Source: Lachnospiraceae bacterium (lineage in GTDB: Bacteria; Bacillota; Clostridia; Lachnospirales; Lachnospiraceae). Taken from it: a stretch of 64,000 nt of DNA. Below are positions 1,403-60,559 of the stretch, piece by piece; within the stretch, counting starts at the first letter, position 1; every line of letters starts with the position of its first letter. The notes below the pieces were generated by a model. The model did no database searches, was not told the DNA's origin, and saw only the letters and a list, made by a program, of their open reading frames with translations. A program made the position numbers and the translations under genes. The stretch is taken from NCBI GenBank assembly GCA_017526745.1, contig JAFXQX010000012.1, positions 62,001 to 126,000 of the forward strand, written 5' to 3'.

Positions 1403-1435
1403 TGCTGCCCCTCCTTTCCTCCTTGAATGGATAGC

Positions 1436-1486
1436 TTTCCCGGAATCAGTTCCGGGCACTGTCTGTAAGGATCAGACAGACGCCTG
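1436..1486 (-). promoter_or_regulatory. Two tandem hairpins in the 5' UTR of the FliD-like gene
   Basis: Read on the minus strand, the leader contains CTGTCTG...CAGACAG followed immediately by CCCGGAA-ctga-TTCCGGG, then the ribosome site. Two adjacent stems in a roughly 110-nt leader suggest mRNA stabilisation or translational control. No known riboswitch class was recognised and no U tract follows. Confidence 0.4.
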
Positions 1487-36122: not shown

Positions 36123-36127
36123 TGGAC

Positions 36128-46466: not shown

Positions 46467-46494
46467 TACGTTCGTTGCAGTTGCAGCGGACCAT

Positions 46495-46566
46495 AGGGCT
46501 ATAGCCAAACGGTAAGGCAGCGGACTCTGACTCCGTCATCTGAAGGTTCGAATCCTTCTAGCCCTG
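46495..46566 (+). tRNA. tRNA-Gln (anticodon CTG)
   Basis: A 72-nt cloverleaf: acceptor AGGGCTA pairs with TAGCCCT, D arm AGCCAAACGGTAAGGC, anticodon stem GCGGA/TCCGT with loop CTCTGAC (anticodon CTG, reading CAG), and T arm GAAGG-TTCGAAT-CCTTC. Discriminator is G and CCA is not encoded. It has its own promoter and terminator. The plasmid-like island starts immediately downstream. Confidence 0.95.
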
Positions 46567-46571
46567 GTCAA

Positions 46572-46609
46572 AAAAAGGCCATTGTATGATTACATACAGT
46601 GGTCTTTTT
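46572..46609 (+). terminator. Terminator of tRNA-Gln
   Basis: AAAAAGGCCATTGTATG-atta-CATACAGTGGTCTTTTT is a 17-bp stem with two wobble pairs and a T run. Confidence 0.88.
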
Positions 46610-46706
46610 GTGTTGATTTTACGGCATTTCTCGAGAGTCGATCATAAGAAAATCTTTCATGATCATGTCAGTACAGATCAGTAATCATTTTCTCAATTTC
46701 ACTCAA

Positions 46707-46802
46707 AATTAGCATATTTTCCCGAGCAAATTAGCATACGAATTAGCATACGGACAAAAATGAGGTCCAAAAGCGGAAAAAATGGCTCCGAAAATTAGCA
46801 TA
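46707..46802 (+). repeat. Iteron array, four copies of AATTAGCATA
   Basis: AATTAGCATA occurs at 46707-46716, 46729-46738, 46741-46750 and 46793-46802, all on the same strand. Copies 2-4 extend to AATTAGCATACG. They end 22 bp before the start of a RepA_N-type replication initiator gene. Direct repeats just upstream of an initiator gene are the classic layout of an iteron origin or autoregulatory operator. The stretch 46610-46706 shows nothing else. Confidence 0.8.
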
Positions 46803-46824
46803 CGGAGTCCGGAAAGGCGCATAA

Positions 46825-47448
46825 ATGGGGAAAAGTTTGCGGTTTTTTTACCTGTACGGTAATGAAGCAGAGAAGTTCCAATTCTATAAAATTCCAAAAA
46901 CACTTATTGTAAATGACTACTTTTCATCGGTATCGACCGATGCAAAGCTCTTATACGCTTTGTTCCTGGACAGGGCTGCACTGTCATGTGCAAACAACTG
47001 GATGGACAATGAGGGGTGTGTTTATATCCATTATTCAACTGATGCGATCATGGCTGACATGCACTGTGCCAACGGGAAGGTCGCCAAGCTTAAGAAGGAA
47101 TTATCAGATATAGGCCTGATAGAGATCAAGAGGATGGGCCAGGGCAGACCGGACCGGATCTATGTAATGAATTTTGAGCCGGTTCTTATTGGAAATCAGG
47201 AAGATGTTCAGGAATCGCATTTCCAGAAGTGTGAAAATCGCATTTCTAGAAATGTGAAAACCGAATCTCATGATATGCGAATATCGCACGCTAATAAGAC
47301 TAATGATAATCAGACTGAGAATAATCATACTGACATCAATCAAACTAAAGAACGATTGTCGAATCGTAAGAACTGGTTTCATCTTTCAAACGAAAGACAT
47401 TACACGAAAGAAGACTACGAGGCAATGATGCGTTTGGCAATGACCTGA
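46825..47448 (+). CDS. RepA_N-family replication initiator
   Basis: The 207-residue product has the winged-helix RepA N-terminal domain: EKFQFYKIPKTLIVNDYFSSVSTDAKLLYALFLDRAALSCANNW (~14-57), then VYIHYSTDAIMADMHCANGKVAKLKKEL and GLIEIKRMGQGRPDRIYVMNF (~97-117). The C-terminal part is short and Asn-rich, and ends with HYTKEDYEAMMRL. RepA_N proteins initiate replication of low-copy Firmicute plasmids and some integrative elements. It is shorter than many plasmid versions (250-350 residues). GGAAAGG precedes the ATG. Confidence 0.8.
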   Translation: MGKSLRFFYLYGNEAEKFQFYKIPKTLIVNDYFSSVSTDAKLLYALFLDRAALSCANNWMDNEGCVYIHYSTDAIMADMHCANGKVAKLKKELSDIGLIEIKRMGQGRPDRIYVMNFEPVLIGNQEDVQESHFQKCENRISRNVKTESHDMRISHANKTNDNQTENNHTDINQTKERLSNRKNWFHLSNERHYTKEDYEAMMRLAMT

Positions 47449-47493
47449 TCAGTTGTTTATTTCATATCAGCTTGAAGAGGGAGGTACGAACCG

Positions 47494-47844
47494 ATGAGTG
47501 AGAAAAGATATCGAATAGCAGGCAGTGACAGTGACCTGGCCAGGTCATATCCCGATGTGGCAAAAACGCTGTCGATATCCGGAAGGAACATGTCAAATAT
47601 CTGCTACGGCTGTGTGGCGTTATTTATCAGATGTCTGGGGTTTTGCCCTCAGAGCAGGGAAGAAGTGAAGGAGATGAGTGCCCTGATAAAGACAATAAAT
47701 GACCACAACGTAAGGCCGTGGTTGATCACATCATCCGGAAGTCTCCCTGTCGGGGGAGAAGAGGGCGCATCAAATGTATTTCCATCATCGGAGGATCCGG
47801 TCGTTGGTTGGAGTAATCCGGACATGGAAGAAGAGTTTTATTAA
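47494..47844 (+). CDS. Small unrecognised protein between rep and parM
   Basis: The 116-residue product starts after GAGGGAGGTACGAACCG. It has a predicted helical region at about 15-75 with three Cys (NICYGCVALFIRCLGFCP holds four) and a disordered Ser/Glu tail ending DMEEEFY. It lies 18 nt upstream of the ParM-like gene and probably in its operon. A partner of the partition filament or a Rep accessory factor are possible, but no motif proves either. Confidence 0.5.
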   Translation: MSEKRYRIAGSDSDLARSYPDVAKTLSISGRNMSNICYGCVALFIRCLGFCPQSREEVKEMSALIKTINDHNVRPWLITSSGSLPVGGEEGASNVFPSSEDPVVGWSNPDMEEEFY

Positions 47845-47862
47845 GAAAGAGAGGTATTTGAA

Positions 47863-48867
47863 ATGATCAACACAATTATTGCAGTAGATGCCGGAAAGGC
47901 AGAGACAAAAACAGTAGTACTTCATGACAAGAAGGATATCGTCAGGGATCATTTTCCTACGGCGATAGGCACGGCAAACGATGGGAGAGTTGATCTTCTT
48001 GATGGCGTTCACACCTTCTCATCAAAGACACTCGGCGAAGCGGGTAAGGAAGTCAGGATCGGTTGCGGAGAGCTTCCGATCAAGTCAGATGATAATTACT
48101 CGAAGGATACTGATATCAACAGGTTATGCACCCTGTATGCTATCGCACGAAGTGTTCAGCCCGGTGAGACAGTAAATGTCGTGACCGGGTGTCCGCTCTC
48201 AATATACAGCCGTAAGGAAGAAAGAATGGAGTACGGACGAAACATTGTACCAAATGGTAAGGTTGAATGTGCCATTGACGGAAAACCGATCGAGTTTAAC
48301 ATCGACAAACGACTTGTGTGCGCTGAGTCAACCGGGATTCTCACCATGCATCCGGATCTTTTTGCCAAGAAGGAATATGATGCGGCGATCGTTGACATGG
48401 GTGGCCTTAACATGAATATCGCTGCTGTCAACAACGCCAATATCATCATTGAATCCTCACACACATCCAGGCATGGCGGCAGGGAACTTGTACGTGAGAT
48501 AAGAAGGGCTCTTATGGATCACGGGATGGAGATCACGGATACACAGATACTTACCTCGATAACGCGCGGATCCGTAAACTATCATGATGATGACCGAAAG
48601 GAAGAATCTAAGGCGATCATCGGTCAGGCGGTATGTTCATTTATTGATGAGATCGAAAAGACTCTTCGTAACAGCTGGAAGAACTTTGATACACTGGAGC
48701 TTTTCTTCATCGGTGGAACATCGTTTCTCCTGAAGGATTTCCTTACAGAACGTTTTGGCGAGCATGCTCATTTTGAGAAGGATTTTGAGACGTCACGCTA
48801 TGCAAATGCTGAAGGTTTTGCACGCAAGATGTATCAGAAGCTCGCTGAAGGATCCGGCACAAAGTGA
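47863..48867 (+). CDS. ParM/StbA-like actin-type plasmid segregation ATPase
   Basis: The 334-residue product has the actin-fold ATPase signature. Phosphate-1 is IIAVDAGKAETK (~4-15), connect-type VVTGCPLSIYS is at ~105-115, phosphate-2 is DAAIVDMGGLNMNIAAV (~170-186), and the adenosine motif is LELFFIGGTSFLLKDF (~283-298). ParM filaments push plasmid copies apart with the help of a DNA-binding adaptor. GAGAGGTATTTGAA precedes the ATG. The neighbouring rep and mob genes support a plasmid origin. Confidence 0.82.
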   Translation: MINTIIAVDAGKAETKTVVLHDKKDIVRDHFPTAIGTANDGRVDLLDGVHTFSSKTLGEAGKEVRIGCGELPIKSDDNYSKDTDINRLCTLYAIARSVQPGETVNVVTGCPLSIYSRKEERMEYGRNIVPNGKVECAIDGKPIEFNIDKRLVCAESTGILTMHPDLFAKKEYDAAIVDMGGLNMNIAAVNNANIIIESSHTSRHGGRELVREIRRALMDHGMEITDTQILTSITRGSVNYHDDDRKEESKAIIGQAVCSFIDEIEKTLRNSWKNFDTLELFFIGGTSFLLKDFLTERFGEHAHFEKDFETSRYANAEGFARKMYQKLAEGSGTK

Positions 48868-48949
48868 TATGACCACTTCGCCAGGGTCCCTGTGGCCGTA
48901 ACAGCCGATAACTCAGCAAAAAACGCTTCGTTATCTTCGTTACGACCAC

Positions 48950-49116
48950 GTCTGTAGCTGCCAAGTGGCTGTATCTACCGTTTTTTTTGATTTACATGGC
49001 AGCTACAGACAAAACCACTACCATCCCCCGCAAATAAGCGGCAGGATCTCCCTCGGATCTTCGTTGGGGATGGTAGGCAAGTTTCGCATTGTGGCAAGCC
49101 ACAATGCAAACTTGCC
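48950..49116 (+). other. Probable oriT region: three nested inverted repeats
   Basis: Three perfect or near-perfect inverted repeats are stacked here. They are GTCTGTAGCTGCCA (48950-48963) with its complement at 48997-49010, CTACCATCCCC (49018-49028) with 49066-49076, and GGCAAGTTTCGCATTGTGG (49076-49094) with 49099-49116 (one bulged base). A C-rich stretch (CTTCGCCCCCTTGGAACCCC) follows. The position just upstream of mobC and the relaxase is where a transfer origin is expected. A nick site cannot be assigned by eye. The 316 nt from 48868 to 49183 hold no convincing gene. Confidence 0.6.
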
Positions 49117-49183
49117 AGTGGGCTTCGCCCCCTTGGAACCCCTTTTTGCACCCCGCCAGGGGATATCAAAGGATGTGATCACA

Positions 49184-49576
49184 ATGCAACGCGCAAACCG
49201 CAAACGAAACCGGGCCGTCACCGTACGGATGAACGATCGCGAATATGCCCGCATGCAGAAGAAGATAGCCGAGTCCGGGCTGTCCCAGCAGGCATATATC
49301 ATAAGTGCGGTCTGCTCGTATCCGATCACATCATCGAATGAGATGGCGGAGCTTAAGAACATAAGCAAGACGTTTTCAGACTTTGAGCGACAGATACGCG
49401 GTATGGCGACGAATGTGAATCAGATGGCTCATGTTGCAAACGGTCAGGGGCAGGTAGCGAGTGAGAAGAAACTGGAAGAGTTGGCGGAACAGATCCGCGA
49501 TTACCGGAGGGAGAGTGAGGCTATATGGCAATCAATAAGGTCGTCAATAACGGGGGCTGTTCACACGGAGCCATGA
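49184..49576 (+). CDS. mobC: MobC-like mobilization accessory protein
   Basis: The 130-residue product begins MQRANRKRNRAVTVRMNDREYARMQKKIAESGLSQQAYII, a ribbon-helix-helix DNA-binding start. It continues with the MobC-type helix NISKTFSDFERQIRGMATNVNQMAHVANGQG. MobC proteins help the relaxase melt and recognise oriT. I chose ATG 49184 with AAAGGA upstream; the longer frame to 48965 runs through the palindromic region and is not credible. Its 3' end overlaps the relaxase start by 52 nt. Confidence 0.82.
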   Translation: MQRANRKRNRAVTVRMNDREYARMQKKIAESGLSQQAYIISAVCSYPITSSNEMAELKNISKTFSDFERQIRGMATNVNQMAHVANGQGQVASEKKLEELAEQIRDYRRESEAIWQSIRSSITGAVHTEP

Positions 49577-50616
49577 GAAATGCCATGGAATATGTTCTGC
49601 GGGATAACTCGCTTGAGGAAGAGTATGTAGAGATAACCGGGCCGTATAACGGGGAGACTATTAATTATGATGAAGTATACCAGACGTGGCTCGCAGAAAA
49701 GAGAATGTGGGATAAAGACTCCGGCAGGATGTACGCCCACAATATCATAAGCTTCCATAAGGATGAACAGATAACACCGGAGCAGGTACTTGAGATCAGT
49801 CGCCATTTTGTTGACAGGTTTTTTCCGGACCACCAGAGCTTGATAGCAGTACACCGGGACAGGGAGCATCTGCATTGTCATATCCTGACAAACAGCGTTT
49901 CGTATGTTGACGGGCATAAACTTCACCAGACGAAGAAAGATCTTGAGATCCAGAAGGAATTCACGAATGATCTCTGCCGGAACCGGGGATTATCGATCGC
50001 CGAGAAAGGACATCACTTTGACGGAAAACCGATCGAACAGGGAGAGATCAGGTCATGGAGTAAAGATAAATACAACCTGCTGATCAATGATACAAAGAAC
50101 AGTTTTGTTGCAGACTGCGCCCTGGCAATAATGGATGTGATGTCGAACTGTACCTGCAGGGATGAGTTTATCGCCGGTATGGCTGGACATGGGTGGTCAG
50201 TACAGTGGGAAGACAATCGGAAACATATCGTATTTGAGAACGAGGACGGTGACAAGGTCCGCGACAGCAGGATCGAGAAAACATTTGAAGGGATGGAAGT
50301 AAATAAGGAGGCGCTGATACATGAATTTGAAAGACAGAATGCAATCAGACTCGAGCACTGTGGATTCGAACCGGAACTCGAAGAAGAACGAGAGCCAGAA
50401 CCGGAACACGGAGATGCAGCAGAAGATATCGAGTCTTTCCTCTCAGGTATCGATGCTGAAGAACAAAGTGCAAGCGCAGAAGCAAGAAATAGTCGAGCTG
50501 AACGAGTATATCGTGAAGTTGAGCGAGAGCGACAAGCAATTGAAAGAAGCATACAGCTTGAAATCAGCCGCAGAGGAAGCCATAGCCACGAGCTCGAAAT
50601 TGGTCTCGGATTATAA
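49525..50616 (+). CDS. mobA: MOBP-type relaxase (mobilization nuclease)
   Basis: The 363-residue product has the relaxase domain (MobA/VirD2 type). The N-terminal motif AINKVVNNGGCSHGAMRNAMEYVL is followed by the histidine triad region VHRDREHLHCHILTNSV, with His110, His115, His117 and His119. No clear tyrosine context can be confirmed by eye. Relaxases nick oriT and pilot the strand into the recipient. The protein lacks primase or helicase domains, so it is a mobilization rather than self-transfer enzyme. The last 99 codons overlap another long ORF in a different frame. Confidence 0.85.
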   Translation: MAINKVVNNGGCSHGAMRNAMEYVLRDNSLEEEYVEITGPYNGETINYDEVYQTWLAEKRMWDKDSGRMYAHNIISFHKDEQITPEQVLEISRHFVDRFFPDHQSLIAVHRDREHLHCHILTNSVSYVDGHKLHQTKKDLEIQKEFTNDLCRNRGLSIAEKGHHFDGKPIEQGEIRSWSKDKYNLLINDTKNSFVADCALAIMDVMSNCTCRDEFIAGMAGHGWSVQWEDNRKHIVFENEDGDKVRDSRIEKTFEGMEVNKEALIHEFERQNAIRLEHCGFEPELEEEREPEPEHGDAAEDIESFLSGIDAEEQSASAEARNSRAERVYREVERERQAIERSIQLEISRRGSHSHELEIGLGL

Positions 50617-51391
50617 AGAGGCACATAAGGAGAGGATGGCTATACTCGATGAACGTGAAGATGCGATAAATAAAAAGGAGGCCAGGGTAAAACAGATAGC
50701 AAGTGATCAGGAGGCCGAGATATCCAAGAGAGTCAAAAAGGATGTTTCTAAGATAGAAAGCAGACTCCAAAGAGATTATAACGATAGAAAACAGATTCTG
50801 GAAATGTGTGACAAAGAAATGGTAAGAGCGCATCTGGCCGGATATATAACATCGATCGTAGGACTGATCTTTGCAGCGCTAGGCATTCTTGCTTTATCAG
50901 AGCCTTACCAGAATGAAGCTGAAGAATTCTTTAAAGAACTGGCAAACATAATATGTCCAATAGCAACCGGTCCATATAAAGCTGCTATATTCTTTGCGGG
51001 AAAGATGTTAAGTGAAGCAGCGAATCCTGCCGGTTATTGGATCATAGGAATACTGTTCATGGTCATTTTTTATGGAATACTGATCACCCTGTTTATACTG
51101 CTGTGCGTGTTTGTGTATAAAAAGATCAAAGAGTGTATGTGGGATGGAATAACGGTTGCGGTGGTGGAATTTGCGGTGTTAGTTCCGATGTTCTTTGCAT
51201 CGATTCTCGTAGAATTACCAATAAACCTGTTGCTGTTAAGTTGTATCATATTTATCATATACATGATCATACGTATATACATAGCATGGGACAATGAAGA
51301 ATCAAAAAAGGAATTTAACAAGTACTTCATATTTCTCGTATTTTTGATAGTCTGCTTATATTCGATAGTATATTTAGTTGGGCATATATGA
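50321..51391 (+). CDS. Coiled-coil membrane protein nested in the relaxase 3' end
   Basis: The 356-residue product begins inside the relaxase gene, in another frame, after a strong AATAAGGAGGCGCTGATAC ribosome site, and overlaps it by 296 nt. Residues ~25-160 are a long coiled coil (MQQKISSLSSQVSMLKNKVQ..., ending in KRVKKDVSKIESRLQRD). At least five hydrophobic helices follow (about 170-190, 225-235, 245-275, 288-315, 335-353). The arrangement recalls ColE1-type mobB nested in mobA. The coiled coil plus membrane anchor suggests a mobilization accessory protein linking the relaxosome to the membrane. Confidence 0.65.
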   Translation: MNLKDRMQSDSSTVDSNRNSKKNESQNRNTEMQQKISSLSSQVSMLKNKVQAQKQEIVELNEYIVKLSESDKQLKEAYSLKSAAEEAIATSSKLVSDYKEAHKERMAILDEREDAINKKEARVKQIASDQEAEISKRVKKDVSKIESRLQRDYNDRKQILEMCDKEMVRAHLAGYITSIVGLIFAALGILALSEPYQNEAEEFFKELANIICPIATGPYKAAIFFAGKMLSEAANPAGYWIIGILFMVIFYGILITLFILLCVFVYKKIKECMWDGITVAVVEFAVLVPMFFASILVELPINLLLLSCIIFIIYMIIRIYIAWDNEESKKEFNKYFIFLVFLIVCLYSIVYLVGHI

Positions 51392-51996: not shown

Positions 51997-52050
51997 TTGA
52001 CAATTGTAGTCTACTGATGTAAACTACAGATAGACGACAATAGTAGACTA
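51997..52050 (+). promoter_or_regulatory. Promoter with BlaI-type operator
   Basis: TTGACA (51997-52002) and TAAACT (52020-52025) lie 17 bp apart. TGTAGT and ACTACA flank the spacer as a dyad, and TAGTCTACT within the spacer is repeated in inverted form as AGTAGACTA near 52042-52050. BlaI/MecI repressors bind such TGTA/TACA dyads over promoters, so autorepression of this operon is likely. Confidence 0.72.
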
Positions 52051-52070
52051 TTTGTTTAGGGAGGGAAAAT

Positions 52071-52436
52071 ATGCCTACACCTAGAATTAATAACAGCGAA
52101 TTCAGGTTTTGCGAGATATTATGGGCAAATGAGCCGATAAGTAGCACGGAACTTGTAAAACTGTGTAAGGATAAGCTCGAATGGAGCAAATCTACCACAT
52201 ATACGATAATTAAACGACTTTCTGAGCGTGGTGTCGTAAAGTTTGAGGATAAAACTGTATCATCTCTTGTCAGCAGGGACGATGCATGCAAAGCAGAGAG
52301 CATTTCGGTTGTTGATCGCAACTTTGCTGGTTCACTTCCGGGGTTTGTAGCAACTTTTGTCGGAGGCAGACAGCTTTCCGAAGAGGAACTGGATGAACTA
52401 CAGGCAATAATAGACGGATGCAGGAAGGGTAAATGA
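52071..52436 (+). CDS. BlaI/MecI/CopY-family repressor
   Basis: The 121-residue product is a winged-helix repressor: NSEFRFCEILWANEPISSTELVKLCKDKLEWSKSTTYTIIKRLSERGVVKFED (~5-58), followed by the dimerisation tail with LSEEELDELQAIID. BlaI proteins are cleaved or released after signalling by a BlaR1 partner. GGGAGGGAAAAT precedes the ATG. The next gene overlaps by 4 nt (ATGA), the usual blaI-blaR1 arrangement. Confidence 0.88.
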   Translation: MPTPRINNSEFRFCEILWANEPISSTELVKLCKDKLEWSKSTTYTIIKRLSERGVVKFEDKTVSSLVSRDDACKAESISVVDRNFAGSLPGFVATFVGGRQLSEEELDELQAIIDGCRKGK

Positions 52437-54658
52437 TAGGCGGGATCCTTATTCGATATCTCATCAACTCAATATACGGAGGTGTTTTCATTGCCATAGC
52501 CATCTTGATCAGACTGGCGGCAAAAGACAGAGTACCAAGAAAATATATTTGTATCTTGTGGCTTATAGTAGCCCTTCGGCTTATTGTTCCGGTATCTGTT
52601 GAATCTTCATACGGTGTGCTTCCACAGATTACATTCGGACAGATGAAACCGATAAATATGGTACAGCATTCTTACAGTAATGAACCGGTCATTCAGACAT
52701 CAGAATATGATGAAGATCAATCTCCAACAGCCGAGGAGATAAGCACAGAGAGTACTATAACAGATGATCAGGATAATGTTGAAAATATAACGGAAACGCC
52801 GATTACGAATCCGACTGTATCAGCTTTTGCGGATATCTGGCTATTTGGATTTGTGTTGATGCTTGTGTATATGACGGTGGGCATGATACGCACAGGAAAA
52901 CGGGTTAGTTTTGCTGTACCGGATATATACCGGATACATATAAATCCTTCCGGAGCGGAAGAAGAAGTTAAAGTGTATACCGCAGAGGATATCAGTGTTC
53001 CGTTCCTGTTTGGGTTCATTAACCCAAAGATATATCTTCCGTATGATCTTATAGAAGAAGACAGGATACACGTTATACGTCACGAGATCGCCCATATCAA
53101 GCGCTTTGATCATATATTGAAACCGGCTTTTTTTGTTGTACTGGCAGTTCATTGGTATAACCCGCTGGTATGGGTGGCTTTTAAACTGTTTTCTACTGAT
53201 ATGGAGATAGCCTGCGATGAGGCGGTAGTGGACGGATATGATGCGGATACCAAGAATGATTACATACTTGCGCTCTTATCTGCAGCGGGCAAAAATCATG
53301 ATATGAGGATGTTTTCATTGCCATTTGGCAATGCTCCGATTAAGGAGAGGATAAACAGGGTTATAACCTATAAGCGATCCGGATGGGAAATCAGAGTATC
53401 GGCAATCGTGGTCATTGTTGTTGTTTCAATGATTTTTGCAACAGTTCATGTAAATGCAGGACAGGAAAACACTGTGATCACGGATTATGATCTTGTAATT
53501 CCGGTAATCGATGAGGATAGCGGCGAAAGATATCTGTTAATACCGTATTATAAAGATTTAACAGCGTATGAGATGGTAGAATCTGACGATACGCTGGAGG
53601 CAGAAGTTAAAGATAAATCGGATCAGTTCTGGTATGAACGCGATTTATCTGATTATACGATAAAAAGAGATGCACCTACGAACCTTGAATATATAGTAAA
53701 AAATGGTGACGCACTTTGGGAAGGGCATGTGTTGCTGCGTAATGACCGTGACAGAAAAAAGTACGATGAACTGGCACAGGATTATTCTGACAGATATACA
53801 CAAGTAATCCCAGATGCCGAAACGGGATACATTTATGCAGCCGAAGAGGTCAAGGGGCTTTCCGAAAGGCATGAGAATGGTTTTCTGTTCCTTCAGACAG
53901 GAACGCTGATGTATATCGATCTGAAGGATCCGCAAGCTTACGGATGGAGACTGGCGCTTACTACGGAAGAGTATATGCGTCTTGAAAAGTGGATGTCAGA
54001 GAGCATGGATAATGACTTTGATCATACCAATCTTGAGGCTTGGAAGCCTGTGCTTGATAAGCTTGATATCGATTATGGCGCCAACATAGATACAGACAGC
54101 AAGCAGTATAAGGCCGCGTATGATGCCCTGATGGGTGAATCAACTGATTTTCCTCCAAGGGGAATGTCCGTTGAACAGGCACAGGAGCAGTTAAGATATA
54201 ACATGAAACAGTTTGACGAAGACGGTGATCCGGTTAGTTTCGGAACAGTTCCGGGAATGCTTGTTACCGAGGAGAATGATAAGGATCGAAGGACGATCAT
54301 ACAGATACCCGATGAAATAAAGCAGATGATGTTCGATCTGAACAAGGAAGAGTTTATTAAGTGGAACGGTATGGGCGGTGACACGCAAAGATCAGATGTG
54401 TATCGGACTTATCAGGAACAGGCGCCCAAGGATGAAAGACTGAAAGGAACATGGACACTCGGTCAGTACGAGAGAATATACATAGGGTATTTTATAGACG
54501 TTGTAAGGTCTGTGGATCCCGACTGGCAGCCAGGTGATGATTTTGACAGTGATCTGATAAACGGGATTACGAGAGATCAGATAGAAATGTATGTTTATTC
54601 GGATGGATCGGAGCTTATATATGATCCGCAGCAGTTTATTACCGAATCTGTTGAGTGA
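52433..54658 (+). CDS. BlaR1-like M56 sensor peptidase with a C-terminal DUF3879-like domain
   Basis: The 741-residue product has the BlaR1 membrane half: helices at ~5-25, ~38-55 and ~125-143, then the zinc peptidase motif RHEIAHIKRFDH (~216-227) with HWYNPLVWVAFKLFSTDMEIACDEAVV. A last helix lies at ~320-342. The extracellular part (~345-741) has no penicillin-binding SxxK/KTG motifs. Its end (~540-700) aligns by eye with the protein at 56382-57041: FDEDGDPVSFGTVPGM, the shared RLKGTWTLGQYER block and a GITRDQIE / GVTRESID stretch. It probably senses something other than beta-lactams and inactivates the BlaI-type repressor. Confidence 0.82.
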   Translation: MIGGILIRYLINSIYGGVFIAIAILIRLAAKDRVPRKYICILWLIVALRLIVPVSVESSYGVLPQITFGQMKPINMVQHSYSNEPVIQTSEYDEDQSPTAEEISTESTITDDQDNVENITETPITNPTVSAFADIWLFGFVLMLVYMTVGMIRTGKRVSFAVPDIYRIHINPSGAEEEVKVYTAEDISVPFLFGFINPKIYLPYDLIEEDRIHVIRHEIAHIKRFDHILKPAFFVVLAVHWYNPLVWVAFKLFSTDMEIACDEAVVDGYDADTKNDYILALLSAAGKNHDMRMFSLPFGNAPIKERINRVITYKRSGWEIRVSAIVVIVVVSMIFATVHVNAGQENTVITDYDLVIPVIDEDSGERYLLIPYYKDLTAYEMVESDDTLEAEVKDKSDQFWYERDLSDYTIKRDAPTNLEYIVKNGDALWEGHVLLRNDRDRKKYDELAQDYSDRYTQVIPDAETGYIYAAEEVKGLSERHENGFLFLQTGTLMYIDLKDPQAYGWRLALTTEEYMRLEKWMSESMDNDFDHTNLEAWKPVLDKLDIDYGANIDTDSKQYKAAYDALMGESTDFPPRGMSVEQAQEQLRYNMKQFDEDGDPVSFGTVPGMLVTEENDKDRRTIIQIPDEIKQMMFDLNKEEFIKWNGMGGDTQRSDVYRTYQEQAPKDERLKGTWTLGQYERIYIGYFIDVVRSVDPDWQPGDDFDSDLINGITRDQIEMYVYSDGSELIYDPQQFITESVE

Positions 54659-54721
54659 TCGAAGGCCGGGATATTTAATTGGCATGAGATAAATAATCGG
54701 ATAAGAAAGGAGGTGAAGAAG

Positions 54722-55474
54722 ATGACGAACTTCGGGTTAAGCAACATCGCATCACTGTTTGGAATGGGCAATACAGGAAGCACTAGTTCGCTGTACAGCC
54801 AACTGGCTCAGTATTCGAGCATAAAGTCAGGTGCTTACGCCAAGCTCACAAGAGCATATTATGGAAAGAATACCGATACATCAAAGAAAACGGAAAGCAC
54901 GGCCAAGAAATCTGATGTTACAGACAAGTTATATACATCAAAGGCAGCTGATTCTGTTAAAGCTTTAAATGCTGTAGAAACCGAGGCTAATGAACTTGTT
55001 AAATCCGCAAAAAAACTTGTAGATAGCGGGAAAGACAGCCTGTTTACAAGCGAGAAGGATTATGACAAGGATAAAGCGTATGAGGCAGTAAGCAAGTTTG
55101 TTACAGATTATAACGACACCATTGATAAACTTGCAGGAACAAGCGACTCCACTGTTCATAACAATGCAAGCAGTATGAAGCGCATGACCGATATCATGAA
55201 GAACAGCCTGTCAAAGGCGGGTATCAGTATCGGGGATGACGGGAAACTCTCGGTTTCCGAGGAAGATTTCAAGAAGGCTGACTTCAGCAAGATAAAATCA
55301 GTATTCTCCGGCAAAAACTCATATGCTGATATCATATCGAATTCAGCCTCACGTATTGCTTCTGCTGCAAGTACCGCAGAAAACAAGTATGGCAGCGGTG
55401 CATATGGAAGCGACGGAACATACGGCTCATACAACAGTTATTACAGCGGGTTGTACTACAATGGATTCTTTTAA
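54722..55474 (+). CDS. Short FliD-like protein
   Basis: The 250-residue product has no signal peptide and a Ser/Tyr-rich start (GMGNTGSTSSLYSQLAQYSS). It resembles the C-terminal part of FliD: ALNAVETEANELVKSAKKLVDSG, YEAVSKFVTDYNDTIDKLAG (~120-140), MTDIMKNSLSKAGISIGDDGKLSVSEEDFKKADFSKIKSVFSG. The tail is Gly/Ser/Tyr-rich. It lacks the large beta domains of a true cap. ATG 54722 follows AAGGAGGTGAAGAAG. It follows the BlaR1-like gene by 63 nt and starts a run of similar secreted-looking proteins. Confidence 0.65.
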   Translation: MTNFGLSNIASLFGMGNTGSTSSLYSQLAQYSSIKSGAYAKLTRAYYGKNTDTSKKTESTAKKSDVTDKLYTSKAADSVKALNAVETEANELVKSAKKLVDSGKDSLFTSEKDYDKDKAYEAVSKFVTDYNDTIDKLAGTSDSTVHNNASSMKRMTDIMKNSLSKAGISIGDDGKLSVSEEDFKKADFSKIKSVFSGKNSYADIISNSASRIASAASTAENKYGSGAYGSDGTYGSYNSYYSGLYYNGFF

Positions 55475-55517
55475 GAAAACAAATGGATTTGGACAAATCA
55501 CAAGGAGGTGAAGAGAA

Positions 55518-56213
55518 ATGTCAATGACAATAGGAACAGATTATTCGGCTTACAGAGCGGGACATACGAGTGTTGATATTCCCGATGCGGAAAAGGGTGA
55601 TTTTGAAGAACACCGTAAATGGTCAGAATCAATTAAGCCGGAATTGGATGAGTGGAAAGCAAATAACGAGAGGATTCGCAGCAGCCGGCCGGGCTACCAT
55701 CAGGGGGTTGTCTATGAAAAGTCTGATGAACCGGTTGATAATTCCACATATTCCATCAACAAGATGAATGCGACCGACAGGGCAGCTATAGTTGATCAAC
55801 TGAAGGCGGACGCGAGACAGCGTGAGCAGCAGCTTGTAAGTATTGTAAACAAGACCATTTCTGATCAGGCGCAAGCTTTTGGTAAGGCAATAGGAGATGA
55901 TTTCTGGTCGAAGTTATCCAGCGGAAACTTTAGTGTGAGTGCTGCAGACAAAGCGCAGGCACAGAAGGATATCAGCGAGGATGGTTACTTCGGAGTCAAA
56001 CAGACATCACAGAGACTGTTTGATTTTGCAAGTGCACTTGCAGGCGATGATGTCGACAAGATGAAGGAAATGCAGGCAGCAATGGAGAAGGGATATAAAC
56101 TTGCCACAAAGGCATGGGGCAATGAACTCCCGGGAATATGCAAGGAGACCATTGACGCTGCAAACAAGTTATTCGACGAGTATTATAAGTCGAAGGAAAG
56201 CATAACTGCCTGA
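55518..56213 (+). CDS. DUF5610-like protein
   Basis: The 231-residue product starts after AAGGAGGTGAAGAGAA. It has a polar N-terminal half and an all-helical C-terminal domain with ISEDGYFGVKQTSQRLFDFASALAGDD (~155-181) and YKLATKAWGNELPGICKETIDAANKLFDEY. This is a pattern I associate with DUF5610, often found near flagellar genes. No signal or membrane helix. It shares the ribosome-site sequence and orientation of the FliD-like gene 43 nt upstream. Confidence 0.5.
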   Translation: MSMTIGTDYSAYRAGHTSVDIPDAEKGDFEEHRKWSESIKPELDEWKANNERIRSSRPGYHQGVVYEKSDEPVDNSTYSINKMNATDRAAIVDQLKADARQREQQLVSIVNKTISDQAQAFGKAIGDDFWSKLSSGNFSVSAADKAQAQKDISEDGYFGVKQTSQRLFDFASALAGDDVDKMKEMQAAMEKGYKLATKAWGNELPGICKETIDAANKLFDEYYKSKESITA

Positions 56214-56308
56214 ATATAGCTGCTTATATGATATAAGACAATAAGCTACCCTGCTTCGAAGAGGCAGGGTGCTCCCGGCGAGGGTTGTGTAATATACTAC
56301 CAGTGTAG

Positions 56309-56349
56309 GATGCAGGCAGTGGATCTTTATACCGCTGTCTGCACCTTTT
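56309..56349 (+). terminator. Terminator after the DUF5610-like gene
   Basis: TGCAGGCAGTGG...CCGCTGTCTGCA with two wobble pairs and a TTTT tail. A smaller stem ACCCTGC/GCAGGGT lies just before it (56250-56271). A CTACcagtGTAG dyad (56297-56308) abuts the first arm. Confidence 0.65.
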
Positions 56350-56381
56350 GCATTTGGCACTTTAACAGGAGATAGACTATT

Positions 56382-57041
56382 ATGATAATGATCAGAGATA
56401 TTAGAAATATGTTTCAACAGATGTCTGGTATGCCGATCAACAGCAAAAACGGAAAGGCTCTGCTCAGGAAATATGGTATAAATACAAACAGCGCACAGTA
56501 TAAAGCAGCCATGAAACAGATGTCAGAAGCGTCGCATGGTGGGGTGGGGTATACCAATCCGCAGGCGATAAAGAATCTTATGGCAAACTTTGATAAGGAT
56601 GGGGATCTTATCAATGCACGCGGTGTGGCAGGCATGGATGCTACAGGGATCCCGCAGTCTCAGCGGCATAAGATCATCGGCGTTTCCGAGGAGTCAAGAC
56701 AGGATATGTTTAATGAGACAAAACGGCATTTCTTGGCGGAAAATGGCGTAGGAAACGGCGATACAACAAGGCGATCCGAGGTATTTACAAGATACCAGCT
56801 CAGCGTTCCGAAGCAGGACAGATTAAAAGGAACCTGGACGCTTGGGCAGTATGAACGGGCGTACAGGCAGGCGTTCTATGATGCATGCAAAAAAGCTGAT
56901 CCCAAGTGGGAACCTGGCAAGGATATTCCTGCGGGCGCATTGGATGGTGTTACCAGAGAGAGCATTGATAGCTGTTTGGTCAAGGGTCGGGGAGAGTACG
57001 GAGAGACACTTGAAAGAAGAACGGTGGATTTGACGATATGA
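56382..57041 (+). CDS. DUF3879-like protein
   Basis: The 219-residue product starts IRDIRNMFQQMSGMPINSKNGKALLRKYGINTNSAQYKAAMKQM. It continues with FDKDGDLINARGVAGMDATGIP and the block RLKGTWTLGQYERAYRQAFYDACKKADPKWEPGKDIPAGALDGVTRESID. I associate this with DUF3879, an uncharacterised family of Bacillus and clostridia. There is no signal peptide. The same domain forms the outer end of the BlaR1-like sensor at 52433-54658. AGGAG precedes the ATG at 10 nt. Confidence 0.65.
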   Translation: MIMIRDIRNMFQQMSGMPINSKNGKALLRKYGINTNSAQYKAAMKQMSEASHGGVGYTNPQAIKNLMANFDKDGDLINARGVAGMDATGIPQSQRHKIIGVSEESRQDMFNETKRHFLAENGVGNGDTTRRSEVFTRYQLSVPKQDRLKGTWTLGQYERAYRQAFYDACKKADPKWEPGKDIPAGALDGVTRESIDSCLVKGRGEYGETLERRTVDLTI

Positions 57042-57066
57042 TCAGATGTTAAAAGGAGTGACAACC

Positions 57067-57693
57067 ATGGATATCAAAATCAAGTCTTCAATGGAAATAT
57101 ACAAGAATCCCAGCATAGATCCGAATAATACCAATGTACAGCATAAGCATATTCTCATGACTAACATGGGGGATACGCTTACAGCTATCCAGAAGGGGCG
57201 CCTCAGCGTGGATGGTGATGTCCTGGAACTGTCTGATGAAGCCAAAGGGGCTTTGCAGGAAGCGTTTGATAAAGCCATGAAAGAAAATGAAAAAGTAAAT
57301 GAAATGAACGCCGCCATGCATGACAGTGTTTGGGCACAACAGACAGGTGATGCACAAAGGAAAATGATGGAGGATGAAGCCAGAGCCATAAAGATCGCTA
57401 CGAGTATAGGTAAAGGTGACGTTGTGCCGGCGAAAGATGAAGCATTCCTTATGACTACGAAACCTGATCTGTATAAACTTGCTAAGATGCGGGCGCTGAT
57501 GGCTGAGGAACATAAAAAAGAGAAATCTGTTCTGGATGATGATGAAGAGCCGAAGGAATATGATTGGGATAAAGGCCAGGATGACACCATTCATCGTGTA
57601 GCTGTGGATATAGCAATTGGAGATGATGGAATGTCGGTTGCAGGAGTTTCCGAAGTGGCTGTATCTAGCAGTGATATCAATAATTTGGAGTAA
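57067..57693 (+). CDS. Unrecognised soluble protein in the DUF3879 cluster
   Basis: The 208-residue product begins MDIKIKSSMEIYKNPSIDPNN after AAAAGGAGTGACAACC. It is charged, mostly helical, with GKGDVVPAKDEAFLMTTKPDLYKLAKMRALMAEEHKKEKS (~115-155), a pattern I have seen in Lachnospiraceae proteins encoded near DUF6033-like genes. An acidic tail follows. No signal or catalytic motif. It follows the DUF3879-like gene by 25 nt. Confidence 0.55.
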   Translation: MDIKIKSSMEIYKNPSIDPNNTNVQHKHILMTNMGDTLTAIQKGRLSVDGDVLELSDEAKGALQEAFDKAMKENEKVNEMNAAMHDSVWAQQTGDAQRKMMEDEARAIKIATSIGKGDVVPAKDEAFLMTTKPDLYKLAKMRALMAEEHKKEKSVLDDDEEPKEYDWDKGQDDTIHRVAVDIAIGDDGMSVAGVSEVAVSSSDINNLE

Positions 57694-57711
57694 AAACATA
57701 CAGCAATTATC

Positions 57712-58746
57712 ATGAAAAAGATGCGGATAGTTCTGATCTTGGCGGTATTAACAGTAATCCTGGGAGGTTGCGGGACAACTACATCAAATCCTGTTGTAAG
57801 AGCTATAACATCAAAACCGGGAACAGACGAAAAGGAATACTCTATCGTATATGATAACGGCAAAATAGAAGCGACCAGCGAGTTTGCTCCTGACGAAGCG
57901 ATCGTTCTGTATGCAGATAGTGATGACTTTGTAGCTAATACGGAAAACGGAAAGGTTAATGTCAGGTTAGATGATACGAAACTAACCGATGATACCGGTA
58001 ATCCATATGATACAGATGATGTGATACAGTCTTTGATGCAAGACATTGCCGATAATGCAGAGCATGACATATTTGACGTAAGTATCATTATCGACGGTGA
58101 CCGGTATTTTGTTTTCGAGAAACATAATGTAAACATACAAACCCCGTGCGTACTATATGAATATGATACTGCGACTAAGGTGTTGGATGAACTATGTCGA
58201 TGGGATGATGTGGATCTGAAGGGAATTGCTATTTACGGATCTGACAGCGATGGTTCTACAGTTATAATCGGAGGTGCAGACGGTCCGACATCAATATATC
58301 TTGCATCCAAAACTGATTCGGATGGTGAAAGGAAACAGGATATAAATGATTCAGATTATACAGCGGTTATCGACAGGGTTCTTAATGAATACAATTTCGA
58401 ACCTGTTGAATGGAATAATACTATTGAATGGTCTGAGGATGCGGATGCCCTTATAAAGATGGCCGAAGAAAACAAGGGTCGATACAAAGCGTATGGAATA
58501 ATCAGTAAAGAAGCGGGTCCGTATGGGATAGTATTGATCGATACAATTGACTGGACAGAGATCAACACAAACTATGTTTACGAAAAGTGGTTCTATACGG
58601 GAAGTTCCGCCGGGGAGCCGGAACTCAAATGGGATAAGAGCAGGTTGTACTTTACATATCCCGTTCCGTCAATCATAGGATATAAGATGAAAACGGTTAT
58701 GATCGATTGCGGATATGATACGGGACATATGGAATTTGTCGAGTGA
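57712..58746 (+). CDS. Lipoprotein with an IIGGADGPTSIYL motif
   Basis: The 344-residue product is a lipoprotein (signal ending VILGGC, Cys19). Two beta-rich regions flank a short conserved-looking peptide, TVIIGGADGPTSIYLASK (58258-58311, residues ~183-200). This resembles the GGADGPT core of sodium-pumping decarboxylase beta subunits, yet the rest of the protein bears no resemblance to that membrane enzyme. No ribosome site is seen before the ATG, which follows the upstream stop by 18 nt. Function unknown. Confidence 0.65.
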   Translation: MKKMRIVLILAVLTVILGGCGTTTSNPVVRAITSKPGTDEKEYSIVYDNGKIEATSEFAPDEAIVLYADSDDFVANTENGKVNVRLDDTKLTDDTGNPYDTDDVIQSLMQDIADNAEHDIFDVSIIIDGDRYFVFEKHNVNIQTPCVLYEYDTATKVLDELCRWDDVDLKGIAIYGSDSDGSTVIIGGADGPTSIYLASKTDSDGERKQDINDSDYTAVIDRVLNEYNFEPVEWNNTIEWSEDADALIKMAEENKGRYKAYGIISKEAGPYGIVLIDTIDWTEINTNYVYEKWFYTGSSAGEPELKWDKSRLYFTYPVPSIIGYKMKTVMIDCGYDTGHMEFVE

Positions 58747-58810
58747 TCATTGCCAGAAACATTAAAGGATCAAGGGTAATATGCCGATAATATATTTGAT
58801 AGGGCTATGG

Positions 58811-58854
58811 AAAGCGCATTTTTCAAGGGATTGTTTTTGAAATATGCGCTTTTT
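58811..58854 (+). terminator. Terminator after the lipoprotein gene
   Basis: AAAGCGCAT (58811-58819) pairs with ATGCGCTTT (58844-58852), with a further internal TTTTCAA/TTGAAA pairing, and TTT follows. Confidence 0.75.
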
Positions 58855-58875
58855 GTATGAAGGGGGATGTATAGC

Positions 58876-59448
58876 ATGAATGTATTATTCCAAAAAGAGG
58901 AAGAGAAGAAGATAACAACGCAGAGAGAACTTGTGGAGCATTTACTTGCCGGTTCTGGCGATGTTGGTGAAATGTCGGAGGAAAACCGCAGGGAGATAGA
59001 TGCCAGAATAATGGCGAAGCTTAAGTCCGGAAAGAAACTATCACAAAAGGAACTGGATTATCTGAGGAGAACTAATCCGATATTATATGCCGAGGCAATG
59101 CGAGTACAGAGGATGGCGGAAGCACTTGAGGAACAGTTAAAACACGCAAAGAGTAAAGAAGAAGTAAACCAGATATTCACGACGGCACTGTCCGGGATAT
59201 CCAAGAACGATCCTGACAGGGAGTACCTGATCGCCTCATTTAACAGGATATCCGAAGAATTCCGAAAATCAAAGGCATATAACGAGCTGCCGACCACTAT
59301 TGAAGAGGCAAAAAAGAAAAAGAAACAGGTGGATCCGGATCCAGACCTGTTCAAGGAAGATGACGAAGACGATGATCAGAATTTAAAAAACTGGAGTCCT
59401 CTCCAGGAAATGTTTGATCAGATGCCGTCGTTTTCGGTAAGTGCATAG
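58876..59448 (+). CDS. Unrecognised coiled-coil protein
   Basis: The 190-residue product starts at ATG 58876 behind AAGGGGG. It is helical and charged: ARIMAKLKSGKKLSQKELDYLRRTNPILYAEAMRVQRMAEALEEQLKHAKSKEEV (~45-100). A Lys tract and a very acidic stretch (DPDLFKEDDEDDDQN) follow. No signal. The first half resembles small Lachnospiraceae proteins that accompany DUF6033-like genes. It is 120 nt downstream of the lipoprotein gene and has a terminator before it. Confidence 0.5.
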   Translation: MNVLFQKEEEKKITTQRELVEHLLAGSGDVGEMSEENRREIDARIMAKLKSGKKLSQKELDYLRRTNPILYAEAMRVQRMAEALEEQLKHAKSKEEVNQIFTTALSGISKNDPDREYLIASFNRISEEFRKSKAYNELPTTIEEAKKKKKQVDPDPDLFKEDDEDDDQNLKNWSPLQEMFDQMPSFSVSA

Positions 59449-59490
59449 ATATATATGTCATTTGTGAATAAGCATTGATAGGAGACTTGC

Positions 59491-60399
59491 ATGCAGATAA
59501 GCTCTTTGTTGAACAACCTTTCAGTACAAAACAGAACATCTTCCGTTATGCCATATGATAAAATGGATCAGGCTTCCTTCCTGGATTACATGAAGCAGGC
59601 AACTGAAACTGGATCAAATGCTGAGCTGACAGGAATAGCGGAATTAAGCAAAGCATATAGTGTTGGCAAGGCGGATGCAGCTTGTTTTGCCGATGCATTT
59701 ACACGGTATGATGTTACAACGCATGTCGGGAATGCAAATATATCCGATGCCCACTGGCAGAGAAATGATTTTCCAATATGGAAGTATTTTGAAAAGGGAG
59801 CATCTGCCGACTGCTTGAATAATTGGGAGCCGTCCGGACCCAATCCGCCGCAAACAGATCCGGGTGTTCAGCGGGGACTGGCATCGATTGGCCCGGGGAA
59901 AATGTCTGTCATTATTCCTGACGCACTGCAAAAAAAGATGGACGCTGATCCGGAGTATGCTAAAGAAATAATGCGGAAGGTACAAAAATGGAAGGAAGAT
60001 TACGACAACTGGGATAATGCTACCGCTCTGTCTTTGGGAATGGATGTTGCTGAACATCAGGCAAGCAAGAATTATCTTATTAATCTTGATGAAGACGGAA
60101 ATGTTAAGCAATATGCAGTTTCAGGAGGCGGGAACAGTATCAAGGGCCCTTCAAAGGAAGAGCAAAGACAGTTCGAGGAAGAGCAAAAGGCTAAAAGAGA
60201 AAAACAGATAAAGCTGGAGAGAGAGAAACAAGAATACAACCGCAAGGTTGCAGAACAGAAAAGACTTTTTGAGGAAGAAAGATATCACAGACAGGTCATT
60301 GAAACAGTTATGAAAGATCAGATAGAATCGGACACGAGTATACAGGGAATTCTCTCGACATACAGTACGAACTCTTCACCGAAAGGTGGAAAAGCATAG
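59491..60399 (+). CDS. DUF6033-like protein (island copy)
   Basis: The 302-residue product has a Ser-rich start without signal peptide. A globular part follows with MSVIIPDALQKKMDADPEYAKEIMRKVQKW (~132-161). This corresponds to IVLIDDEKIERMANDPAYAKKFEGI in the core protein at 35322-36122. A highly charged coiled coil lies at ~208-270. Overall plan and C-terminal charge pattern match the core homologue. ATAGGAGACTTGC precedes the ATG. It closes the cluster that begins with the BlaI-type repressor. Confidence 0.58.
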   Translation: MQISSLLNNLSVQNRTSSVMPYDKMDQASFLDYMKQATETGSNAELTGIAELSKAYSVGKADAACFADAFTRYDVTTHVGNANISDAHWQRNDFPIWKYFEKGASADCLNNWEPSGPNPPQTDPGVQRGLASIGPGKMSVIIPDALQKKMDADPEYAKEIMRKVQKWKEDYDNWDNATALSLGMDVAEHQASKNYLINLDEDGNVKQYAVSGGGNSIKGPSKEEQRQFEEEQKAKREKQIKLEREKQEYNRKVAEQKRLFEEERYHRQVIETVMKDQIESDTSIQGILSTYSTNSSPKGGKA

Positions 60400-60432: not shown

Positions 60433-60466
60433 GCGGTCTCTTGTGAAAACGGGAGACCGTTTTTTG
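60433..60466 (+). terminator. Terminator after the island DUF6033-like gene
   Basis: CGGTCTC...GGAGACCG followed by TTTTTT. Confidence 0.85.
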
Positions 60467-60559
60467 GAAAAATGAAAAATTACTGTCAGGTTTTGGGCAG
60501 CTGAGTTGTATTATATGTAGAAGGCCTTCAAAGAAACATATTCGGAAAGCGAGAGGAGT

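Follow-up and report, generated by a model that had tools for sequence, protein, structure and literature searches.

The locus and its receptor

We analysed a window of 64,000 nucleotides (nt) from a Lachnospiraceae bacterium (assembly GCA_017526745.1, contig JAFXQX010000012.1, positions 62,001 to 126,000 of the forward strand), in which nine genes on one strand form a cluster: a BlaI-type repressor, an M56-type receptor and seven further genes, here called the cargo (Table 1). A first-pass annotation of this DNA had proposed that the repressor and the receptor control or monitor the cargo as a set of surface or exported proteins. It had placed all nine genes where we find them, and profile searches agreed with its calls of a BlaI-type repressor, of an M56 gene that overlaps the repressor gene by 4 nt and of a DUF3879 protein, the last a strong match. 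Its FliD-like and DUF6033-like labels hold on weak matches that lie above the cut-offs, and its DUF5610-like label for the 231-aa (amino acid) protein had to be dropped, as no Pfam or NCBIfam family matched that protein at E <=1.

About 400 residues follow the last hydrophobic helix of the receptor, and they are made of two domains found in the cargo families. Residues 550-718 match DUF3879 (E 2.8e-40) and are 40% identical over 188 positions to the cargo protein encoded at 56,382; the Pfam scores are 138 bits for the receptor and 261 bits for the cargo protein, with a gathering score of 27. Residues 345-545 belong to an unnamed family whose members elsewhere are free-standing, with a length of about 300-600 aa (L070, L075, L077, L178, L182-L184; here and below, L and G numbers denote loci and genomes). 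Three free proteins of this family were scanned and showed no Pfam family above cut-off; another protein with the domain, at L186, passes DUF6440 with 29.9 bits where 26.5 are needed.

The receptor has the HExxH motif (HEIAH) and downstream Glu of M56 gluzincins; this region gives a weak alignment to structures of BlaR1 (E 0.005), and the hydropathy peaks are consistent with an N-terminal part that crosses the membrane several times; the NCBIfam model blaR1_generic gave 100 bits where 400 are needed. By analogy with BlaR1, the M56 protease would face the cytoplasm and the outer part would be located outside the cell. This outer part does not look like a penicillin receptor, because no SxxK or KTG/KSG motif follows residue 340, and beta-lactam sensing was rejected on the same ground. 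Also, no beta-lactamase or penicillin-binding protein is found among the Pfam hits of the cluster, in line with the first-pass annotation. Searches of solved structures with the DUF3879, unnamed-domain and DUF6033 profiles returned nothing or weak, unlikely hits. The cargo-family domains of the receptor, together with the flagellar link described below, go beyond what that annotation foresaw.

Table 1. Features of the BlaI/M56 cluster, with positions in the window.
Feature	Position	Strand	Evidence and remarks
BlaI operon promoter, TTGACA-N17-TAAACT	51997..52025	+	consensus scan (see text)
BlaI-type operator 1 (predicted), GTCTACTGATGTAAAC	52009..52024	.	0 mismatches to GTYTACN4GTARAC; between -35 and -10
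BlaI-type operator 2 (predicted), weaker dyad, GACGACAATAGTAGAC	52033..52048	.	2 mismatches; behind -10
BlaI/MecI-type repressor, 121 aa	52071..52436	+	PF03965 (Penicillinase_R), E 4e-21, residues 8-115
M56 receptor, 741 aa	52433..54658	+	M56 at 13-308 (E 1.9e-40); HEIAH from 217; last hydrophobic helix 322-340; unnamed domain ~345-545; DUF3879 550-718
FliD_C-like protein	54713..55474	+	PF07195, E 1.4e-8; likely ATG start 54,722 by eye
231-aa protein, without Pfam family	55518..56213	+	relatives beside FliD-like genes in L037, L064, L066
Hairpin after fourth gene	56298..56350	+	-23.6 kcal/mol, z -4.3; T-run weak
Standalone DUF3879 protein, FliK-like tail TVDLTI	56382..57041	+	PF12995, E 8.3e-78
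215-aa protein	57046..57693	+	relatives in L037, L064, L075
Lipoprotein, 344 aa	57712..58746	+	N-terminal hydrophobic stretch; lipobox read by eye
Sigma-28-type promoter, TAAA-N16-GCCGATAA	58763..58790	+	12/12; fits Butyrivibrio consensus
Hairpin between sigma-28-type promoter and 193-aa gene	58800..58860	+	-22.8 kcal/mol, z -5.2
193-aa protein, ends SFSVSA (no Asp)	58867..59448	+	behind the sigma-28-type promoter
DUF6033-like protein, without tail	59491..60399	+	PF19498, E 5.2e-8
Terminator	60433..60467	+	12-pair stem with T-run; z -5.1

Repressor, operators and transcription units

The repressor aligns across nearly its full length with structures of MecI and BlaI. At the site where the BlaR1 protease is known to cleave BlaI (PMC9834060, in the part consulted), it keeps the Phe and has Thr instead of Asn before it. 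As its best score against the NCBIfam models for BlaI/MecI of known resistance loci was 63, where 180 are needed, we take it as a relative and not as the BlaI of a known resistance locus. The likeness of the receptor to BlaR1 and the retained Phe lead us to infer that the receptor protease quite probably cleaves this BlaI.

The operators of BlaI and MecI are dyads with a TAC-N4-GTA core. The first of the two predicted here reads GTCTAC-TGAT-GTAAAC and is the sole perfect match in a genome of 2.6 Mb; if two mismatches are allowed, the pattern has 14 places in the window vs 4.9 expected. The promoter scored 10/12 in a consensus scan whose sites were, overall, no more numerous than in shuffled sequences. 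Its TTGACA box and 17-nt spacing, as well as the second dyad, recur in four related promoters (L035, L064, L066, L067), so the dyad-bearing promoter of the first-pass annotation has the same layout in all four. Similarity to three related genomes (G193, G307, G331) starts at 52,009, 51,997 and 51,988, i.e., at this promoter, and the module thus seems to travel with its own control. We consider autoregulation of the operon by BlaI very probable. A comparable case is that of Clostridium thermocellum, where, in the part of PMC8457756 consulted, two BlaI proteins with small, autoregulated regulons use GTCTAT/GACTAT inverted repeats in two pairs; those regulons are read there as an antibiotic response and, within that part, include no flagellum-linked cargo, unlike the present cluster.

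Control of all seven cargo genes by the pair, as first proposed, finds no support in the layout: there is one perfect operator in the genome, a hairpin follows the fourth gene, and the gene at 58,867 has its own sigma-28-type promoter. Internal terminators had been proposed at 56309 and 58811; hairpins are indeed present there, each beating 200/200 shuffles, and neither is in the strict terminator scan, which lists on this strand, between or after the genes, the terminator at 60433..60467 alone. The first hairpin is likely the end of the BlaI-controlled unit, and the second, directly behind the sigma-28-type promoter, may act as an attenuator in a leader instead of terminating transcription. 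From these signals we read three putative transcription units, namely BlaI, receptor, FliD-like and 231-aa genes under BlaI; DUF3879, 215-aa and lipoprotein genes; and 193-aa and DUF6033-like genes under the sigma-28-type promoter. The middle unit may have a promoter of its own or depend on read-through. The sigma-28-type pattern matches at 58,763 and nowhere else in the window (0.08 expected; 8/100 shuffles had one), and it agrees with the Butyrivibrio flagellar form TAAA, N16-17, MCGATAa (PMC3720852, part consulted). Separately, residues 181-203 of the lipoprotein (window 58252-58320) contain a short stretch like OAD_beta, the beta subunit of Na+-pumping decarboxylases, at E 8.6e-4, below the cut-off.

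Conservation of the fusion and linkage of its parts

Receptor matches (E <=0.001) were found in 10 of the 37 same-genus genomes searched, and five carry the full fusion (G000, which is the genome of the window, G193, G331, G307 and G324), with identities of 99, 85, 64 and 31-40% beyond the window's own. Two of the records returned by the genome scan bear names, Lachnospiraceae bacterium UBA3762 and, from reindeer, an uncultured Lachnospiraceae. Towards G307, identity is 52% in the M56 part, 77% in the unnamed domain and 70% in DUF3879; towards G324, the values are 30, 40 and 43%. The ratio of non-synonymous to synonymous substitution rates, compared with G331, is 0.16 for M56, 0.15 for the unnamed domain and 0.10 for DUF3879. 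The outer domains being conserved above the protease part, the sensing part is what selection guards most. In a tree, the four distinct receptor copies of DUF3879 form one clade (98/90), separate from the free copies. A recent origin of the receptor domain from the adjoining cargo gene was therefore rejected, the sensor copies standing in their own clade and the neighbouring gene being nearest to a phage-borne copy. These comparisons indicate that the receptor fusion arose long ago and has been maintained. One might instead take it for a functionless product of chance or misassembly, and G304 offers an example, a receptor shortened to 301 aa in which both the protease and the outer part are mostly missing. 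For the full-length forms this view is refuted by the uninterrupted frames of five genomes and by the purifying selection to which the outer part is subject, and we consider it hardly credible in general.

Linkage between the two families was examined over 26 genomes of the family, in which 37 of 40 DUF3879 places were used (we left out the two copies inside receptors and, for a broken gene in G173, its second piece), with 95 of 115 M56 matches (the weakest and second pieces were dropped). An M56 gene lies on the same strand within 5 kb upstream of 9 of these 37 places, where 0.11 would be expected. The nine include the fused receptors of G000 and G193, and the gene of G281 is doubtful, being 4.4 kb away with other genes between. 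The proposed tie between the pair and the cargo thus greatly exceeds chance, and the receptor is itself made of cargo domains. Sensor and cargo also occur apart, which in part bears out the case that the first-pass annotation had named against its own proposal: the other 28 places have no such M56 gene, a number to which short contigs that hide some will have contributed, and several clusters adjoin LytTR/GHKL regulators instead.

A second class of loci, with unfused receptors, comprises 11 loci from seven other genera, in which an M56 gene is followed by DUF6033 and often by DUF3879 (L043, L070, L074, L133-L139, L141). Their M56 proteins have a small outer part and, if the gene is complete, a length of 414-433 aa (L137 starts inside the gene and L141 has a short frame). 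BlaI is present in 9 of the 11, from six genera, and a sigma-28-type sequence, TTAA-N17-CCGATAT, in 7 of these 9 BlaI promoters, those of L070 and L135 being near-identical copies; by pattern, L139, whose start is unsure, and L141 have no match. Gene calls at the loci are longest-frame calls, so that some starts are wrong (e.g., L139) and genes under a longer overlapping frame may be missed. In L070 and L135, from two genera, one operon contains an unfused BlaI-M56 pair along with a gene for the unnamed domain and another for DUF3879, and in L186 an unnamed-domain gene adjoins BlaI. Since the pieces of the fused receptor are elsewhere separate neighbours of an M56 receptor, this Rosetta-stone pattern points to them as partners in one pathway.

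Other clusters (L036, L039, L044, L051, L065, L071-L073) adjoin genes that resemble those for a LytTR response regulator and for a GHKL kinase, labels that rest on similarity to one pair checked by Pfam (L036). The single 14-kb contig L066 combines both kinds on one strand: BlaI with the fused receptor, and a further BlaI-M56 pair that is unfused. Two tailed genes and a regulator-kinase pair lie on that strand as well.

The cluster also has neighbours typical of mobile DNA. Upstream of it, window 46494-51391 holds tRNA-Gln, RepA_N, an actin-like ALP gene, NikA/MobC, a relaxase and DUF6040, and looks like an integrated plasmid or mobilisable element. DUF6040 also adjoins DUF3879 in L038. On a viral contig (L132, 5977-7452), a DUF3879 gene whose product ends SVNISV and a FliD-like gene lie between tail genes, just 5' of the tape measure gene, an insertion that is possibly a moron. 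A tailed DUF3879 gene, 46% identical to that of the window, lies at 5875-6567 of L095, on MT836337.1, an unannotated 11 kb record listed as an unverified phage from human faeces. Identical DUF3879 proteins occur in two genera. No DUF3879 was found in plasmid records; the full receptor matched 41 of them, none over 80% of the query, and the eight listed match the M56 part. A search of viral contigs with the full receptor left no locus kept.

An ordinary BlaI/M56 pair, answering cell-wall stress or an antibiotic beside unrelated mobile cargo, could be supposed from the RepA and relaxase genes nearby and from the abundance of M56 genes in the family (21 of the 26 genomes, 115 matches; one in all in the genome of the window). 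The cargo domain within the receptor, the lack of SxxK and KTG/KSG in the ectodomain and the linkage reported above argue against such a pair, which we regard as quite improbable. With BlaI/BlaR1 and MecI/MecR1 the system shares the repressor and M56 gluzincin receptor, the overlapping genes, the paired promoter dyads and the Phe at the cut site; it differs in having two cargo-family domains instead of penicillin-binding motifs, no gene for a beta-lactamase or penicillin-binding protein in the cluster, and one perfect operator in the genome.

FliK-like tails, flagella and the proposed sensing

The DUF3879 cargo protein ends in a tail of the form Phi-D-Phi-x-Phi. By this strict pattern, the tail ends 20/20 standalone DUF3879 rows of our alignment A1 and 0/4 receptor copies. 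Among the 30 best-scoring DUF6033 loci it is found in 12 by the strict pattern and in 29 by a wide pattern made after the proteins were seen; weaker DUF6033 proteins, such as that at 59,491, have no tail. Tailed partner proteins of about 320-400 aa occur in eight of the best DUF6033 loci and in the window, where a second tailed pair is encoded at 35322-37090 (a DUF6033 protein, E 2.1e-61, ending SIDFKG, and a 323-aa partner ending VVDVAL). Because the partner proteins of alignment A6 were chosen for their tail, its presence in them cannot be counted as independent; three of these proteins share 12-15% identity with the first and may belong to a different family. The tail also ends an FlxA-family protein, among others. 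In all, it stands at the end of 44/612 open reading frames (ORFs) of the DUF loci and the window, many of them homologous to each other, vs 1.9 expected from the rate within proteins. The first form of the pattern had given 38/551 locus ORFs plus the window's own, L035 being a near copy of the window; the pattern was widened twice after viewing, by G in the last residue (44/612) and then by M, C and W there and S in the third residue. Homology of DUF3879, DUF6033 and the partner proteins as the cause of the common tail was rejected (hhalign probability 0.2-0.6%).

We regard this tail as of FliK type, because the FliK of the same genome (flagellar locus; Flg_hook E 2.9e-18) ends VDFTA, that of E. 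coli K-12 ends VDIFA, and the FliK loci of the family end likewise: 27/30 fit Phi-(D/N/S/E)-Phi-x-(A/T/V), a relaxed pattern set after the ends were seen, and 14 fall within the wide tail pattern. The likeness is confined to the end of the protein, as Flg_hook (PF02120) was not among the Pfam hits of the scanned DUF3879, DUF6033 and partner proteins. In the three flagellar stretches of the genome that were read, no ORF besides FliK had the tail. A second Flg_hook, FliK-like protein is encoded elsewhere in this genome (G000:C22:53443-53676, in a 692-aa frame), away from the flagellar locus, and many genomes of the family have such a second protein. In Salmonella, single residues of the FliK tail matter. 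According to a proposal of 2026, export is switched when the last five residues of FliK act on the C-terminal domain of FlhB, once cleaved (PMC13344023, in the part consulted). From its sequence, the tail of the DUF3879 and DUF6033 proteins probably engages FlhB at the flagellar export gate, and we put flagellar export of the free proteins at even odds.

These proteins could also be cytoplasmic regulators of the export gate, mimicking the FliK tail on FlhB without being exported, with the receptor domain an unrelated reuse of the fold. Their tail and their strong tie to flagellated genomes would suit such a role, and so would the lack of an N-terminal hydrophobic stretch, which 0/39 tailed proteins have vs 91/349 others (widest tail pattern). 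FliK, however, is itself exported (PMC13344023, same part), the analogy with BlaR1 predicts that the fused copy lies outside the membrane, and the operons with unfused receptors again tie the same families to BlaI-M56 pairs, so that cytoplasmic regulation appears unlikely to us.

The tie to flagella was surveyed in one draw of 299 genomes of the family (298 genera), many of them incomplete assemblies, with statistics that ignore shared descent. Of these, 26 had DUF3879, 99 had DUF6033 and 155 had FHIPEP, a protein of flagellar export; FHIPEP occurred in 25/26 DUF3879 genomes (Fisher 4.3e-7), 98/99 DUF6033 genomes (Fisher 1.5e-36) and 12/13 genomes with the unnamed domain (p 0.003). Also, a sigma-28-type score of >=10/12 within 250 nt upstream was found for 18/80 tailed genes vs 28/548 others (p 2e-6; widest tail pattern), and a reversed control word gave 3 tailed genes and 26 others. 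A second promoter pattern, built from the promoters of the loci with unfused receptors, lies before 27/622 ORFs, its reversed form before 1. A sigma-28-type word precedes a 121-aa gene just beyond the edge of the window. At window 95-1459 (- strand), a 454-aa FliD_C-like protein (E 1.1e-9) is encoded, on a contig other than the three flagellar stretches read.

From the domain make-up, the operator, the tail, the co-occurrence with flagella and the sigma-28-type promoters before some genes, we read the system as an autoregulated BlaI/M56 operon whose receptor senses via domains common to flagellum-linked accessory proteins and meets an outside partner shared with them; we give this reading a probability of about 0.55, and the shared partner taken alone falls slightly short of an even chance. 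BlaI dimers on the two promoter dyads would keep the first four genes, from BlaI to the 231-aa gene, repressed. The M56 receptor would display the unnamed domain and DUF3879 outside the cell, behind its last transmembrane helix, where they would meet what the free DUF3879 and unnamed-domain proteins meet, be it a shared partner, an assembly site or a ligand. The protease would then be released and cut BlaI, and the operon would be induced, as BlaR1 suggests. Many of the free proteins would be made under sigma-28 control; the receptor copy of DUF3879 would do without the tail because a membrane protein, of which it is a part, takes it to the surface. The most conjectural steps are flagellar export, the shared partner and the role of the cargo.

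The receptor might instead bind its own exported cargo, e.g., the FliD-like or the DUF3879 protein, released by the same cell or by its sisters, in a feedback or kin-sensing loop that monitors assembly. In favour of such a loop, the FliD-like gene follows the M56 gene in 6/6 same-genus loci read, and receptor and cargo have domains in common; mutual binding, though, is not implied by homology. It also counts against the loop that in G331 (L034, 13781-14133) the receptor is intact and the DUF3879 cargo gene, placed between those for the 231-aa and 215-aa proteins, has lost about two thirds of its length. We hold this loop to be rather doubtful.

Several observations weigh against our preferred reading of a receptor sharing a partner with flagellum-linked proteins. 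The case of G331 means that the receptor does not need the neighbouring DUF3879 gene. With up to one mismatch, the operator pattern has 10 places genome-wide vs 24 for a control pattern, so the nine imperfect matches are no evidence of a regulon. The tail ends just one of the seven cargo proteins, that of DUF3879, and is absent from the unnamed-domain proteins; moreover, the FlhB contact of FliK has been placed in its core domain, residues 268-352, and not in the disordered tail (PMC6972891, in the part consulted). Shared descent may inflate the survey statistics, and one genome each with DUF3879 (G270), DUF6033 (G235) and the unnamed domain (G159) has no FHIPEP match, while G272 counts as flagellated on weak partial matches only. 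The sigma-28 word has 13 matches genome-wide vs 10 for the control word, hardly an enrichment, and the best match before the window's DUF3879 gene scores 8/12. In G270, the tailed DUF3879 gene (L045) lies beside an ABC exporter gene and a subtilase gene, with a relaxase-like gene nearby.

BlaI/M56 pairs are known as antibiotic sensors. The question of what they bind is testable here, since the input domains have free relatives in adjoining genes. Among the literature matches listed, judged by titles and abstracts, we found nothing relevant on BlaR1 in Lachnospiraceae, on flagellar export there or on FliK-type tails outside FliK, and the open-licence literature searched held no paper that names DUF3879 or DUF6033. 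The members of both families in the window lie above the Pfam cut-offs, and DUF3879 differs here in being fused to a receptor. Our data give a context for DUF3879 and DUF6033. The system itself varies a known theme, that of BlaI/M56, and the tailed cargo may represent something new in kind. Tentatively, we would extend this to a large class of mobile accessory proteins of unrelated families in flagellated Lachnospiraceae, which would bear a FliK-type tail, be made with the flagellar regulon, leave through the flagellar gate and be watched by BlaR1-type or LytTR/GHKL receptors, in one lineage with the cargo itself as the sensing part. The FliK-like tail on unrelated families is a simple marker for a possible class of flagellar cargo in a family common in animal guts, and it predicts targets for secretome studies.

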